This document shows positions 24,211 to 33,263 of a stretch of DNA of 37,240 nucleotides, piece by piece. The notes beneath the pieces are model-generated. The model had not been told where the DNA came from and made no database searches. It worked only from the letters and a program-made list of their open reading frames with translations. The stretch's first letter is position 1. Every line of letters starts with the position of its first letter. The position numbers and the translations under genes are program-made. The stretch spans positions 72,678 through 109,917 of the forward strand of contig JAFWMO010000010.1 of assembly GCA_017510705.1 (NCBI GenBank), read 5' to 3'. The stretch is from Candidatus Saccharimonadota bacterium (lineage in GTDB: Bacteria > Patescibacteriota > Saccharimonadia > Saccharimonadales > Saccharimonadaceae).

Positions 24211-25188
24211 ATGGAAGAATTTCCAAAAGAAAATACAGAACAAGGTGGAGAAAATACTTTGAGCCCAGAATTGCAGGGCCTAGCTGACATGGCTGGGAAG
24301 ATGGGGGAGACACAAGAGAAGAGCTATGAAGAAGCAAAGAGAGACGGAGAACTACCTGAGGGGGTGAGAGATGAGAGGGATTATAAAGAATATTTGGAAG
24401 AGAAGAGAGCAAGGGAGAAGGAGGCAATAGAAACGAAGAAATCGTTTGAGAAGCGCTTGGAGATTAATGAGGTTTTTTACGACCAGATTGCTATTGCTCG
24501 TGTGCGCTACTTAATTTTTAATGATGGCGAAGGTGATATTTGGAATGGTGAATACAATCAAAATCGTAGGAGAATGAATTCGCGCGAGAAATTGGGCGGC
24601 CTAATGGGGTGTCTTTATCTAGGCACGAACAATAACAATGTGGACGATTTGGATTATGTCACCTGGACGACAGCCGACGGTGACACCGCATCGGCTATAG
24701 TTGAAAAGAAATACACAAAGAATAATGAGCTGTTTGAAGATGCTCTTGGTTTCGCATATCTAAATAATGCTTTCAATAAAAAAGCCAGTGATAGGCATAG
24801 GAATGATCCAGAAATAAAAGAGAGAATGGATACTAGCGCATACGAAAAAAATCTTTCTGATTATGTAAATACTCCGAATGACATGATTGATTCTGGTGAT
24901 GTAGACAACATCAAGGCTTTAATGAGAGATTTAAATTTTAAGACAGCATTATTATTTGACTTTGAGCTTGATAAAAAAGGGTATTATCATGTACAAGATT
25001 TACAAAAGGATAGCATAGTTCCGACGCTTAGATCAAGAATAGAGTTGGAGAACCTCTTTTTGCAAGCAATGAGAAAGAATGCCGAAATTGGTAACCCGGA
25101 AGATAAAGAAAAATTCAACGAAATAATCAAATATTCTACGCAAGGAAAAACCGTTGCTGACAGATTAGGGATGGAGGCGTTAAATTAG
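24211..25188 (+). CDS. Orphan protein A (ME[ED]FP family)
   Basis: This is a 325-aa soluble protein with no recognised domain, signal peptide or membrane segment. Its first ~33 residues (MEEFPKENTEQGG and LSPELQGLADMAGKMGE) are almost identical to those of gene B at 26001, and the first 44 nt of coding DNA are identical. After that the two diverge completely. Residues ~35-95 are charged and probably coiled coil. The C-terminal ~230 residues (with YLGTNNNNVDDLDYVTWTT and ELDKKGYYHVQDL) look globular. The ribosome site GAGAGG is good. The gene follows the attenuator-like leader. The function is unknown. Confidence 0.85.
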   Translation: MEEFPKENTEQGGENTLSPELQGLADMAGKMGETQEKSYEEAKRDGELPEGVRDERDYKEYLEEKRAREKEAIETKKSFEKRLEINEVFYDQIAIARVRYLIFNDGEGDIWNGEYNQNRRRMNSREKLGGLMGCLYLGTNNNNVDDLDYVTWTTADGDTASAIVEKKYTKNNELFEDALGFAYLNNAFNKKASDRHRNDPEIKERMDTSAYEKNLSDYVNTPNDMIDSGDVDNIKALMRDLNFKTALLFDFELDKKGYYHVQDLQKDSIVPTLRSRIELENLFLQAMRKNAEIGNPEDKEKFNEIIKYSTQGKTVADRLGMEALN

Positions 25189-26000: not shown

Positions 26001-26969
26001 ATGGAAGAATTTCCAAAAGAAAATACAGAACAAGGTGGAGAAAACAACTTGAGCCCGGAGATGCAAGAGCTCGCAGATATGGCGGGGAAGATGGGGGAGA
26101 AAACCGAAGTAGAGACGGAACAAGTTGAGAATACCGAAAAAGAGCCGATTGCCGAAAAGTACTACGAACAGGCAAGAGAAGAGAGGGCGCGGTGGATAGA
26201 GAGAGCTAAAGAAAAAGTAAAGAGGGCGGAAGAGATTGCTCCGGAAGATATTAAGATAGTAACTAATCCCCATCTATACTTTAGCTCTGGTGAAAAAGAA
26301 GGTTGGAAATTAATCGATATCGACAATGAGCAAGATATGCAAACATTTACTGAATATAAGGACCGAGAAATAAAAAAAGCGCAAGAGCAGCTAAAAGAAG
26401 ATTCTGAAGTAGATTTGGATAGAATAGCAAAAAGCTGTTGGAACACGGAACGTATCGGTAAAATTGATGAAAAGCTAAAAAATGGCGAGGAGTTTACTGA
26501 AGAAGAGCTTAAATATATAGAGGTACCAAAATCATTCGACGAAGTTTTTCATCCGTATCCGTTCTTTGACAGTACCAAATACGAGACCCTAAAAAATCTC
26601 GATGCGCTTCTTCACGGTAGTGGTGTTTTCGTAGATGATGGAGGCACGTATGAAGACATCTTGAGGGTAGGGTACACTCGTACTCCACTCGCAATGGCAA
26701 GAGTTAGAGAATTGGCAAAGAAAGACCGCTTAGCCTTGCATAATGATGAGGGAATCCAAGACCTTCTTGAAAATATGGAAGAGAGAAGAGAAGCTAACCC
26801 ATTTGCTGGGGAAACTAATATAAATAGCGAGACTGGCGAAGCTAGGACTTTTACACCAGAGGATAATTACCCGCGTCTTGAAGGGGAATCTGATGAAGAC
26901 TGGGCAAATAGACTAAAACGAATCCAACTAAAAACTCGTTTGGCAGAAAAAAGACAAGAACAAGAGTAA
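26001..26969 (+). CDS. Orphan protein B (ME[ED]FP family)
   Basis: This is a 322-aa soluble protein with no recognised domain or signal. The first ~33 residues are near-identical to protein A; the rest is unrelated. It is strongly acidic and helical (long Glu/Lys-rich segments at about 30-85 and 110-160), with a more ordered central region (FDEVFHPYPFFDSTKYETLKN to GYTRTPLAMARV). The start is secure: GAGG lies 6 nt upstream of the ATG and the N-terminus matches A. Expression may be switched by the T-run promoter. It ends at a bidirectional terminator shared with valS. Confidence 0.85.
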   Translation: MEEFPKENTEQGGENNLSPEMQELADMAGKMGEKTEVETEQVENTEKEPIAEKYYEQAREERARWIERAKEKVKRAEEIAPEDIKIVTNPHLYFSSGEKEGWKLIDIDNEQDMQTFTEYKDREIKKAQEQLKEDSEVDLDRIAKSCWNTERIGKIDEKLKNGEEFTEEELKYIEVPKSFDEVFHPYPFFDSTKYETLKNLDALLHGSGVFVDDGGTYEDILRVGYTRTPLAMARVRELAKKDRLALHNDEGIQDLLENMEERREANPFAGETNINSETGEARTFTPEDNYPRLEGESDEDWANRLKRIQLKTRLAEKRQEQE

Positions 26970-29745: not shown

Positions 29746-29777
29746 TAAAAAATACCCCCATAAGGGGGTAATTTTTT
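29746..29777. terminator. Terminator after orphan gene C
   Basis: TACCCCC-ATAA-GGGGGTA stem with A/T runs on both sides. It lies just upstream of the valS promoter. Confidence 0.85.
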
Positions 29778-32523
29778 ATATATTTTCTTCTTGACGACGT
29801 TGCCACTCTCTATATCTTTCTAGCTCTTCTGGATCGATTTCTTCGCGCTCTATATTCAGCGGCCAGGCTGGATATTCTATGCTCTGATATGTTCCCCAAT
29901 ATTCACGCCCACTGTCTCCAAACTTATTATAGTGCACTATGGTTTTGTCGCCCGTGCGTAGGTACAGAAATGCTTTTTGGTATGCAAGGTCAATACTATC
30001 TTCCATATTATCTCTGTCTAGATGGTCTACACGCACAACGCGTGGATCCTTGAGTGAATTCGCCTTAGACCCATCAAACATTTCTTTGAAATTATCACCG
30101 GGTTTTCCACGGAAGAGGTACATACCAGCATCTACATTAAAGCTTTCCGCGATTACACATAAATTGCCTTCGTATTCAAATTGAAAACCAATATATGAAA
30201 GATCGTCGTCGAGTACTACATTGTCTAGCTTCCCATTGTCTACGTTTGCAACAGGAAATGTGTCAATAAAGAATTTTGGCTTATTTTCTTCTAGGGCATC
30301 ATTAAAATAATTTGCCTCAATGTATTCTTTCCAAGTTTTCAACATTTCAACTTTTCTGACACCAAAATCCTTCGGAGCTTCTGCTTTTAGCTCATCTCCG
30401 CTGTCTACTGCGTCTAGCCGTTTACTTCTTGCATAGAATGTCTCGACTTCTTCGGCTCCGGCTTCCTTGATTTCACCGACCAGCTCTTCCTGCCTTTTTC
30501 TGATTAGCTCATTGATATCTTCACCTGAGGCATTTCTCAAAATTGAGCGGTAAGTAGAAGATCGTTCCTTTCTTTCGGCGTCACGGGCCATTTTTTCAAA
30601 CAGACGTTTTTGTTCATATTCTTGGTAGCTCTCGTTAGCGTTCATAAATTTAGTAATTTTTGCTTTTAGGCTACGTGGGCAATCTTTGTTCTTTTTTAGA
30701 TCTATCATTCTGGAATAGAATTCGTCTGGGTTTTTAGCAAAAATGTTTTCGTAGTACCAGTTAGCTTGCTTGGAGGCTTCACCATTGACACCTTTCAATG
30801 TATTAAGGAAGCCGCTGATTGACTTATTGAATATTTCTGGGTTTGACAAATCTAAATCAAGATTCTGCTCAACGTTGGCCAGATCTTCAGGATTAAATGT
30901 TTGCATCACAAAATAATCTGTATATTTCTTATCGTAATCGGGGGTGTGATTCTCGGCTCCTATTTCTAGAATTTCAACAAATCTTTTTCCCAGTTGTTTC
31001 TTTAGGTGGTCTTGATTAATTTCGGCTACTTCGTCATGAACTAGCGGGTACATCCCAAATTCTCCAAAAGCGCGCCCATATTTCTCTTCCAAATATTTCT
31101 CGATACTTAATGTCCCTATTTCAACTGTTCTTGTTTTTAGAAATCCACCCAAATATACTTCTTCTTTAATTCCCCCGAAAAACTGTTCGGTTGCTTCTTT
31201 TTTGCTTTTTTCTAGTATATTCACATACTCCGCTTCTTGTCTTATACCCAAGGATTCAACTCTTTCTGATACTATTCTCTTTAATTTTTCTGTAATTTTT
31301 TTGTCAAATCTTTCTCGATTATACGAATAACGGCTTTCTTCCCCAACAATACGTGTCCTGTGCGAATAGAAATCATACTTGATTGGATATTCTGTACCAG
31401 ACAGCGCCTGTTCTACAACATGGTCGCTCATGCCAATATATTGATCATTGTAATCCACATGGTTCCAGGCAGCACTGATTATGGCTGGGTCATTTTTATC
31501 TATGCCATATAGCCCAAGAAACTTATCTGACAGTTTGACGTTTTTTCTGTTACATTTAAAATAATCTCTGTATCTCAAACTATCCATTATTTCCTGCTTA
31601 GCTATTTCCGATGCCTGATCAGTGGCGTTAAAGTCCTTTAGCTCTTCAGATATTTTTCCTTTGTTTTTTGTTCGATAATCTTCCCATAGTTGATTTTCAA
31701 TTTCTAAGGCCAGCTCGTTTAGATGATGTTTTCTTCTCTCTCCCTCCGTCCACTTGCGTCTTAATGGTAAGTTGGGATAAGGATTTTCGTCAGAATAGAA
31801 GAATTTATCTAGGGCGGTTTCTTCCGCGCTATTCCAGATTTTTTCTTGGTCAATCTCTACACTTCCGTCTTCGTCTTCTTTTACTGGGATATCACCTCCT
31901 GTGAGCTTGAAAATCTTATTCCTGTAGACGCCTTTTATGTTTACCTGGAGCTTTCCTTGGTATCGTTCTACGCTTTCTAGGACATCCATACGTTCTTTCC
32001 ATGTACACCCTTTTAAGCTATCTAGTAGTTTTTCTGAGATTAATTGGCCTAATTCGTCCACTTTGTTGTCCATCCAAGGCTTCGCCTTCTCCATCTCTGG
32101 CCTCATGGCTTTGTCTGTAATCGTCTCATGATGGATGACTGGACGAGAGCCCCTTTCGTCTTCTGGTTTTTCTAGCCATTCTTTATATTCTGGAGTAGGG
32201 AACAGCACATGTGCATTGCCTTTGTCGTCTTTTGCAAAAGCAAAGCCTTGTTCTTCGAATTCACCAGGATTGAATGGAACACCGTTGCCTTTCATTTCTC
32301 CATAAAGAACTGGGTGGTGTTCCTTCATCCATTTTTCCTCATCGCGAGGTTCTGTAGCTGTAGAAGAAGCTAAAACTGCATCATTCGTCTTGTCGCCTCT
32401 ATCGAGAGCATCCTCTCTGTCTATCGCTTCGTTAGCATCGGTTTGTTCAATATCGTTCTGCTTGGCATTGTTTTGTTCGATATTTTGGTTTTCATTTGTT
32501 GGATTATTTGGAAAATCTTCCAC
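29776..32523 (-). CDS. Large orphan protein C (ME[ED]FP family), putatively phase-variable
   Basis: This 915-aa protein has no recognised domain, membrane segment or signal peptide. I place the start at the GTG at 32523, which has an AGGAG site 7 nt upstream and gives M-EDFPNNPTNENQN, matching the MEEFPKENTEQ start of A and B. An upstream ATG would add 25 residues translated from the leader hairpin and is rejected. Residues 1-65 are Asn/Gln/Asp-rich and repetitive (EQNNAKQND, EQTDANEAID). The bulk is charged and mostly helical. The C-terminal ~200 residues look globular (LSYIGFQFEYEGNLCVIAESF; GMYLFRGKPGDNF). The promoter has a 9-G run in its spacer. The function is unknown; an interaction or effector role is inference. 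Confidence 0.85.
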   Translation of the reverse strand: MEDFPNNPTNENQNIEQNNAKQNDIEQTDANEAIDREDALDRGDKTNDAVLASSTATEPRDEEKWMKEHHPVLYGEMKGNGVPFNPGEFEEQGFAFAKDDKGNAHVLFPTPEYKEWLEKPEDERGSRPVIHHETITDKAMRPEMEKAKPWMDNKVDELGQLISEKLLDSLKGCTWKERMDVLESVERYQGKLQVNIKGVYRNKIFKLTGGDIPVKEDEDGSVEIDQEKIWNSAEETALDKFFYSDENPYPNLPLRRKWTEGERRKHHLNELALEIENQLWEDYRTKNKGKISEELKDFNATDQASEIAKQEIMDSLRYRDYFKCNRKNVKLSDKFLGLYGIDKNDPAIISAAWNHVDYNDQYIGMSDHVVEQALSGTEYPIKYDFYSHRTRIVGEESRYSYNRERFDKKITEKLKRIVSERVESLGIRQEAEYVNILEKSKKEATEQFFGGIKEEVYLGGFLKTRTVEIGTLSIEKYLEEKYGRAFGEFGMYPLVHDEVAEINQDHLKKQLGKRFVEILEIGAENHTPDYDKKYTDYFVMQTFNPEDLANVEQNLDLDLSNPEIFNKSISGFLNTLKGVNGEASKQANWYYENIFAKNPDEFYSRMIDLKKNKDCPRSLKAKITKFMNANESYQEYEQKRLFEKMARDAERKERSSTYRSILRNASGEDINELIRKRQEELVGEIKEAGAEEVETFYARSKRLDAVDSGDELKAEAPKDFGVRKVEMLKTWKEYIEANYFNDALEENKPKFFIDTFPVANVDNGKLDNVVLDDDLSYIGFQFEYEGNLCVIAESFNVDAGMYLFRGKPGDNFKEMFDGSKANSLKDPRVVRVDHLDRDNMEDSIDLAYQKAFLYLRTGDKTIVHYNKFGDSGREYWGTYQSIEYPAWPLNIEREEIDPEELERYREWQRRQEENI

Positions 32524-32544
32524 TACACTTCTCCTGCACCGCAC

Positions 32545-32576
32545 CAAGGTAACGGTTATAAAAATAACTATTACCT
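32545..32576 (-). promoter_or_regulatory. Leader hairpin of orphan gene C
   Basis: AAGGTAA/TTACCTT with an inner GTTAT/ATAAC forms a stable stem in the ~50-nt leader, upstream of the AGGAG site. Confidence 0.55.
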
Positions 32577-32578
32577 TT

Positions 32579-32608
32579 ATGATACCCCCCCCCAGCACGT
32601 TTTGTCAA
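32579..32608 (-). promoter_or_regulatory. Promoter of orphan gene C with a 9-G run in its spacer
   Basis: TTGACA (32603-32608, overlapping the vapC stop), 18-nt spacer, TATCAT (32579-32584). The nine G residues (32585-32593) directly abut the -10. Loss of one G would give the optimal 17-nt spacing. Confidence 0.75.
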
Positions 32609-33027
32609 TTGCCGATTGCCATTTCTAGCACGAATTGTTCTGGGGTGTAGACCTGCACTGGCGAGTCAGCGTAATCTTTCGTGTTCCTTGTGATGATGCA
32701 ATCCATATCTTCGCGGATGGCGGACTCGATTTCTAGGGCATCTTCAAAATCGTTTCTTCCTGAGACAAGTGCCCTACGACAATCATCACTTGTAGTGTCG
32801 ATAATTTTGATCGTTTTAGTGAGCTGTTTTAGGATGTCCCCGGCAAGGGAACTACTATGAGTCTCTCTGCGGATGAGGTAATGCAAGTCCGTTAGCTGGT
32901 TTGCAGAGATGAAACCTTCTAAATAGCCGCGCTCTGCCATTAGCAATATCTGCTGAGCCGATTCCGAGAAAGGCTTTCTATCCCTGATGGCGTCTACAAT
33001 CACACAAGTATCTATTAAAACCCGCAT
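32605..33027 (-). CDS. PIN-domain ribonuclease toxin (VapC-like)
   Basis: This 140-aa PIN-domain protein starts MRVLIDTCVIVDAI with the first catalytic Asp. It has the central acidic motif RNDFEDALEIESA and a late Asp/Asn motif CIITRNTKDYADSP. PIN toxins cleave tRNA or other RNA and are inhibited by a cognate antitoxin. It overlaps the antitoxin gene by 13 nt, so translation is coupled. Its stop codon overlaps the -35 box of orphan gene C. Confidence 0.92.
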   Translation of the reverse strand: MRVLIDTCVIVDAIRDRKPFSESAQQILLMAERGYLEGFISANQLTDLHYLIRRETHSSSLAGDILKQLTKTIKIIDTTSDDCRRALVSGRNDFEDALEIESAIREDMDCIITRNTKDYADSPVQVYTPEQFVLEMAIGN

Positions 33028-33263
33028 TTACTACCGAGCCTTTCGTCTCTGGCTTCTTTTAGGCTGATGCCGCTTGCTGGCAAGACACCAAAAATACTAC
33101 TGATGCTGCTCGTCTTGTGGTGCAGCGCTTCTGTTTTAGGCGACGTTGAAGTGAGCTTTACGGAGACTTTGCCGTTTTTGGCAATTTCAATGTCTTCGCT
33201 TTTTGCAAGCATCAAATATTTGCCTAGATTTTGTTTGAACTCTGTAGCTGTAACTATTGCCAT
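33015..33263 (-). CDS. Phd/YefM-type antitoxin
   Basis: This 82-aa antitoxin has the Phd/YefM N-terminal DNA-binding fold (VTATEFKQNLGKYLMLAKSEDIEIAKNGKV in three short blocks: VTATEFKQNLGKYL, KSEDIEI, KNGKV) and a flexible C-terminal part that should wrap the toxin. The AAAGGA site precedes the ATG. Its promoter is a perfect consensus with a palindromic spacer, fitting autorepression by the toxin-antitoxin complex. Confidence 0.9.
   Translation of the reverse strand: MAIVTATEFKQNLGKYLMLAKSEDIEIAKNGKVSVKLTSTSPKTEALHHKTSSISSIFGVLPASGISLKEARDERLGSKCGF

Follow-up and report, generated by a model that had tools for sequence, protein, structure and literature searches.

Introduction

Several bacterial promoters change their activity when a short repeat inside them gains or loses units. 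In Neisseria meningitidis, the transcription of PorA changes when the G tract of the porA promoter becomes one base shorter or longer, and in Haemophilus influenzae the number of TA repeats in the hifA/hifB promoter alters the spacing between the -35 and -10 elements (PMC3899988 for both). The poly-C tract of the meningococcal opc promoter dictates expression; the parent carried 11 C and the high-Opc variants 12, and the tract varied in a mutS mutant whereas that of the parent did not (PMC3447861). In a Gracilibacterium, a hypervariable repeat gene has been described, with 9-mer repeats within the gene (PMC6851277).

The promoter examined here, that of gene C in a genome of the Saccharibacteria, resembles the porA promoter in possessing a G tract between -35 and -10. 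It differs in belonging to another phylum, and PorA is a membrane protein whereas the product of gene C is uncharacterised and lacks a signal peptide. The likeness to opc is the homopolymer in the promoter; the tract there is of C but here of G, and the mutS loss there is a laboratory mutation, whereas none of the 25 genomes searched here yielded MutS_V. The hifA/hifB system differs by its dinucleotide repeat and its shared bidirectional promoter. The Gracilibacterium gene shares repeat-based hypervariation and belongs to another CPR lineage, but its repeats lie in the gene and do not form a promoter homopolymer. No report of poly-G promoter switches in Saccharibacteria was found in the literature covered, which lay mostly outside subscription journals. 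Switches of spacer length are as such a known kind; new would be the lineage, a background in which MutS was not detected, and possibly the connection with a group of exported proteins.

Cultivated Saccharibacteria live on other bacteria, and to our knowledge the ways in which they vary contact with their hosts are poorly known. If the broader proposal made in the last section is true, stochastic expression, rather than gene content, would help to set attachment or host choice. A promoter switch with so simple a DNA signature yields a list of candidate genes, testable with co-cultures that already exist and with archived metagenome reads.

Architecture of the gene C promoter

The window, the whole stretch of 37,240 nucleotides that was analysed, belongs to a draft genome of 657,694 bases in 19 contigs that is 91% complete. 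On its minus strand, from 32608 to 32579, TTGACA is followed by nine nucleotides (AAACGTGCT, between TTGACA at 32608-32603 and the run at 32593-32585), by G9 and by TATCAT, giving a spacer of 18 nt (Table 1). The sequence-only reading had named a perfect TTGACA, a TATCAT, an 18-nt spacing and a G9 run that forms half of the spacer and abuts the -10, and all of these proved exact. The site thus has the make-up of homopolymer-spacer promoters, in which -35 and -10 hexamers surround a G or C run of about eight or more. With three mismatches permitted, the promoter pattern matched only once in the window and in none of 100 dinucleotide shuffles. Apart from the G9, no run of G or C in the window reaches six bases; from base composition, 6.8 runs of at least six and 0.07 of at least nine would be expected. 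The promoter lies 55 nt from the start of gene C (GTG 32523).

Table 1. Features at and around the gene C promoter, in window positions
Feature	Position	Strand	Remark
Gene C, 915-aa protein from GTG 32523	29776..32523	-	AGGAG before start
Shine-Dalgarno-like AGGAG	32531..32535	-	read from sequence
Imperfect inverted repeat of 14 nt with 86% complementarity and a loop of 4 nt	32546..32577	-	directly after -10 of gene C
-10 hexamer TATCAT	32579..32584	-	
G9 homopolymer, 3' half of 18-nt spacer, abutting -10	32585..32593	-	the genome has one further G8+ run
-35 hexamer TTGACA, perfect	32603..32608	-	contains TGA stop codon (32607-32605) of upstream PIN-domain gene
PIN-domain gene (PIN_3), probably encoding the toxin of a toxin-antitoxin pair	32605..33027	-	upstream of gene C
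Phd/YefM-type antitoxin gene	33015..33263	-	precedes PIN-domain gene

We consider it highly probable that this site is a slipped-strand switch of spacer length, of the porA/opc kind, controlling the transcription of gene C; slippage at 32585-32593 and its effect on that transcription are what we infer from the architecture and from the comparisons below. The promoter would be of the sigma-70 type, with an unstable G tract setting the length of the spacer. Slipped-strand mispairing in replication would add or remove G, which would shift the distance between -35 and -10 by whole bases and turn the transcription of gene C up or down, reversibly and at random within the population. The spacer of 18 nt given by G9 would become 17 nt with G8, the commonest ordinary spacing here, and 19 nt with G10. 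The benefit would presumably be a diversity of proteins for contact with a bacterial host.

Recurrence of G-run promoters

The genome carrying the window has two runs of at least G8, and both (2/2) lie between TTGACA and TATCAT. The second (G000 contig 10, 76251-76261) is a G11 in a 17-nt spacer; the gene behind it encodes a protein that has LRR and Listeria-Bacteroides repeats and whose N-terminus is hydrophobic. Among 147 genomes of the genus, the strict pattern TTGACA-N2..12-G7+-N0..4-TATNAT was found at 24 sites, these two included, in 16 genomes and was missing from 131, and the reversed pattern was found at no site in the 147. G8 directly before TATNAT occurred at 45 sites in 28 of the 147 genomes, with zero in the reversed control, and G8+ runs in any context were present in 117 of them. 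A sample of 61 G8+ runs (63 from this genome and eight relatives, seven of them with full inventories and G007 with 1 of its 4 runs, minus two with identical context) was sorted by a looser rule that takes a -35 with at least 5/6 and a -10 with at least 4/6 matches around the run. Seventeen of the 61 lay in promoter spacers, none of the 61 did so on the C-run strand, and the other 44 were not promoter-like, several of them sitting a few codons after a start codon.

These counts bear on the explanation that the run or its length is an artefact of sequencing or assembly, whether from a miscounted homopolymer or from spurious poly-G in two-colour sequencing. Several runs of relatives do lie near contig ends, and one G31 begins 56 nt into its locus. 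The window site, however, is about 4.6 kb from the end of a contig of 109,917 bases, with unbroken sequence on both sides, and artefacts would not select a -35/-10 context or a strand, so that we judge this explanation very improbable. The length given for the G9 may still be off by one base.

In a phylum-wide sample, the strict pattern occurred in 8 of 379 genomes, or 6 of 375 outside the genus; set against the 16 of 147 within it, this shows enrichment in the genus (Fisher p 1e-5, genomes taken as independent). A scan of named genomes, with a pattern that misses long spacers and whose spacer counts were left unused, found at least 120 stretches with promoters of this sort, among them many from gut Bacilli and Clostridia, and the architecture is thus not confined to this phylum. 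In two members of the genus, 200-nt stretches at the G-run promoters themselves (L087 and L061) are identical to sequences recorded under the name 'Candidatus Saccharibacteria bacterium', one obtained from the ileum of sheep and one from the jejunum of roe deer; the organism of the window is thereby assigned to Saccharibacteria by way of its genus.

Runs of G9 to G13 were also seen a few codons after the start codon in paralogous genes (L232-L249 and L265-L274, in genomes G101, G133, G080 and G032). These look like tracts of translational phase variation.

Spacer lengths and run lengths

At the 24 sites of the genus, the run lengths are 8 to 14 and the spacers 12 to 21 nt. A spacer of 17 nt was found in 2 of the 24 G-run promoters versus 98 of 149 ordinary TTGACA..TATNAT promoters (Fisher p 8e-8, a value that overstates independence because some G-run sites are paralogous), and a spacer of 16-18 nt in 9 of 24 versus 113 of 149 (Fisher p 4e-4). 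The ordinary promoters were taken from the full listings of G001, G004, G007 and the genome carrying the window, with nested matches sharing one -35 kept; G-run rows, spacers outside 12-22 nt, the partial rows of G003 and the unlisted G002, G005 and G006 were left out. TGn precedes the -10 at 33 of 42 ordinary promoters with a spacer of 17 (this genome and G001) and at none of the 24 G-run promoters, the latter following from the pattern itself since the G run occupies the TGn position. Lacking TGn, the G-run promoters would depend more on spacing.

Run lengths were compared in 23 homologous pairs, from which a self-pair (L042) and a pair with a G31 at a contig end were excluded. The lengths differ in 11 of the 14 pairs in which both runs are of the promoter type, and the three equal pairs are all paralogues in G133. 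The unequal pairs include G10 and G14, which occur in the same genome and whose flanks are 89 and 95% identical; G12, G11 and G9 in three species, the flanks of G12 and G11 being 87 and 93% identical and those of the third 64% upstream and 88-90% downstream; and G8/G9, G9/G10 (among the G133 paralogues) and G9/G11. The LRR-protein promoter of the window's genome has G11 versus G14 and G9 in G053, with flanks 65-72% alike, and several homologous pairs are just 65-77% alike in one flank. Where at least one run lies outside a promoter (7 pairs), three pairs differ and four are equal. Length variation among homologous copies, used with one genome per species as a proxy for variation among cells or isolates of a species, and read from draft assemblies that can miscount homopolymers, is thus present for a set that includes the LRR-protein promoter but not the gene C promoter.

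The only intact full-length orthologue of gene C, in G113, has the promoter TTGACA-N9-GGGGAGGGG-TAACAT, also with an 18-nt spacer and with one A inside the tract. An unbroken run is thus not required there. The A-broken tract would fit a loss of switching and would equally fit a fixed G-rich spacer. Other broken G-rich spacers were found at L293 (G6AG3) and L303/L306 (G4AG5), all of 16 nt, and at L308 (GGGGAGAGTG), of 17 nt.

It is in this light that an ordinary promoter has to be weighed, one whose G-rich spacer is constant at 18 nt and whose run arose by chance or has a fixed role, as a protein site or in DNA shape. By chance, a genome as large as this one and of like composition should contain 1.3 runs of G9 or longer, so that the location of the run, and not its existence, is the evidence; the G113 orthologue keeps exactly 18 nt despite its broken tract, and A-broken tracts recur in two further promoter sequence types (L293; L303 = L306). 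A constant spacer, however, sits poorly with the range of runs and spacers at the 24 sites, with the unequal lengths in most of the homologous pairs and with the reversed and opposite-strand controls, which were all zero. We therefore regard the fixed spacer as unlikely and prefer the spacer-length switch.

Mismatch repair

A search for the repair domain MutS_V alone gave no match in any of 25 genomes (that of the window, 14 of the genus and 10 of other families), and 11 of 14 control genomes were positive. Such a background is one in which the tracts should slip. Because the genome of the window is 91% complete, the absence there is weak evidence by itself; all 25 genomes agree. The description of the site as a promoter of the phase-variable type, put forward in the sequence-only reading, is supported by the recurrence in the genus, the empty reversed controls, the differing run lengths, the scattered spacers and the failure to find MutS_V.

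Gene C and its neighbourhood

The protein length of 915 aa given earlier for the downstream gene is right for the start at GTG 32523, with AGGAG before it. The protein matched nothing in Pfam, NCBIfam or PADLOC, and against PDB sequences it gave three weak matches, none significant (best E 0.025). Its N-terminus is rich in Asn, Asp and Glu, and residues 1-59 were modelled with pLDDT under 50. The full-length structure model is poor (pLDDT 52.6, pTM 0.31), and the last 226 residues, modelled separately (pLDDT 65.6, pTM 0.64), had no Foldseek match below E 0.45. Neither a signal peptide nor a hydrophobic N-terminal segment was detected. Of the two classes of switched gene that the first reading named for known systems, surface gene is an ill-fitting description of gene C and effector gene a putative one. 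The word 'orphan' stands as far as the family databases are concerned but not strictly, since homologues exist in a few relatives. Any match was found in 6 of 147 genomes of the genus and 7 of 394 of the family, this one included, and only three other relatives matched over most of the length. Among these three, the gene of G063 is broken and that of G102 runs off the contig start; that of G113 is syntenic with 38-39% identity, and a ValRS gene follows in both genomes.

The -35 overlaps the stop codon of the antitoxin/PIN operon, and read-through into gene C is thus also possible. This leads to a different switch, at the level of translation, in which the operon read-through would be translated from GTG 32598, the G run would encode glycines and slippage would shift the reading frame of a hydrophobic N-terminal extension of 25 aa. 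The mechanical ORF of gene C does begin at this GTG inside the spacer and crosses the run without a stop, so that it spans 940 aa and includes a hydrophobic stretch, and relatives have G runs a few codons after ATG. No Shine-Dalgarno-like sequence precedes GTG 32598, however, and in the G113 orthologue a stop codon lies between the tract and the gene, the frame opening at 1494 and the tract occupying 1424-1448 in the reverse-complemented L182. The start from GTG 32523 is, in addition, conserved (MEDFP in gene C, MEEFP in the orthologue). A translational switch at this site thus appears scarcely credible, and a transcriptional one remains our preferred reading.

Inspection by eye revealed no PIN/Phd-type toxin-antitoxin pair (32605-33263 in the window) at the orthologous place in G113.

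Two other proteins of the window, encoded at 24211-25188 and 26001-26969 on the plus strand, are almost identical in their first 33 aa (MEEFPKENTEQGGEN...LADMAGKMGE) and largely different in their bodies. The beginning of gene C, MEDFP, resembles this shared start. The notion of a genome-wide N-terminal export module was rejected, as the 33-aa start was found nowhere else in 410,154 bases of this genome, the window included, and the module is treated as local.

Elements after the promoter

The whole inverted repeat after the -10 (32546-32577) folds as RNA better than shuffled sequences (z -2.84; 2 of 200 shuffles as good). If transcription is taken to start at 32572, one arm of the repeat is incomplete in the RNA, and this transcript folds no better than shuffles (z -0.25). 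The repeat could be a DNA operator or a leader RNA hairpin. An Rfam search of the window returned tRNA only.

A 16-mer leader, AAGCATAAAGGTTATA, was noticed by eye after several G-run promoters. Across the 147 genomes of the genus it has 21 occurrences, spread over 19 genomes, against one occurrence of the reversed control. In all 21 cases (L289-L309), a TATAAT-like hexamer (at least 4/6 matches, the best being picked among 11 positions) lies 0 to 4 nt before the leader, and within the first 60 aa of the protein that follows there is a hydrophobic segment (13 residues with a mean Kyte-Doolittle value of at least 1.5), both thresholds being loose. An intact G run (G11 to G19) is present at 5 of the 21 sites, the G19 site being without a good -35 in range. 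The window promoter bears a partial likeness to the leader, CATAAAGGTAATA, which overlaps the -10.

Proteins behind G-run promoters

At 18 of the 24 sites in the genus, the protein encoded downstream has a strongly hydrophobic segment within its first 120 aa; judging from their sequences, these proteins look exported or membrane-bound. By the same loose test, 17 of 33 ORFs of the window pass (p 0.10 for the difference), and hydrophobic N-termini were accordingly rejected as statistical proof of surface targets. The proteins at the other six sites, gene C included, lack a strong hydrophobic segment, and two of them are GNAT acetyltransferases.

A broader proposal can be put forward tentatively, although on balance we lean a little against it: an ultrasmall and presumably epibiotic genus without MutS may use poly-G promoter switches to diversify a whole set of proteins for host contact. 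Some of these promoters would have the AAGCATAAAGGTTATA leader in common, others would be locked near the optimum by an A in the run, and gene C would be among the non-Sec cargo genes under this control.

Four proteins encoded behind G-run promoters (L010, L011, L012 and L018) have no signal peptide; close to its N-terminus, each carries the motif G[WY][ED]x[VI][AS].
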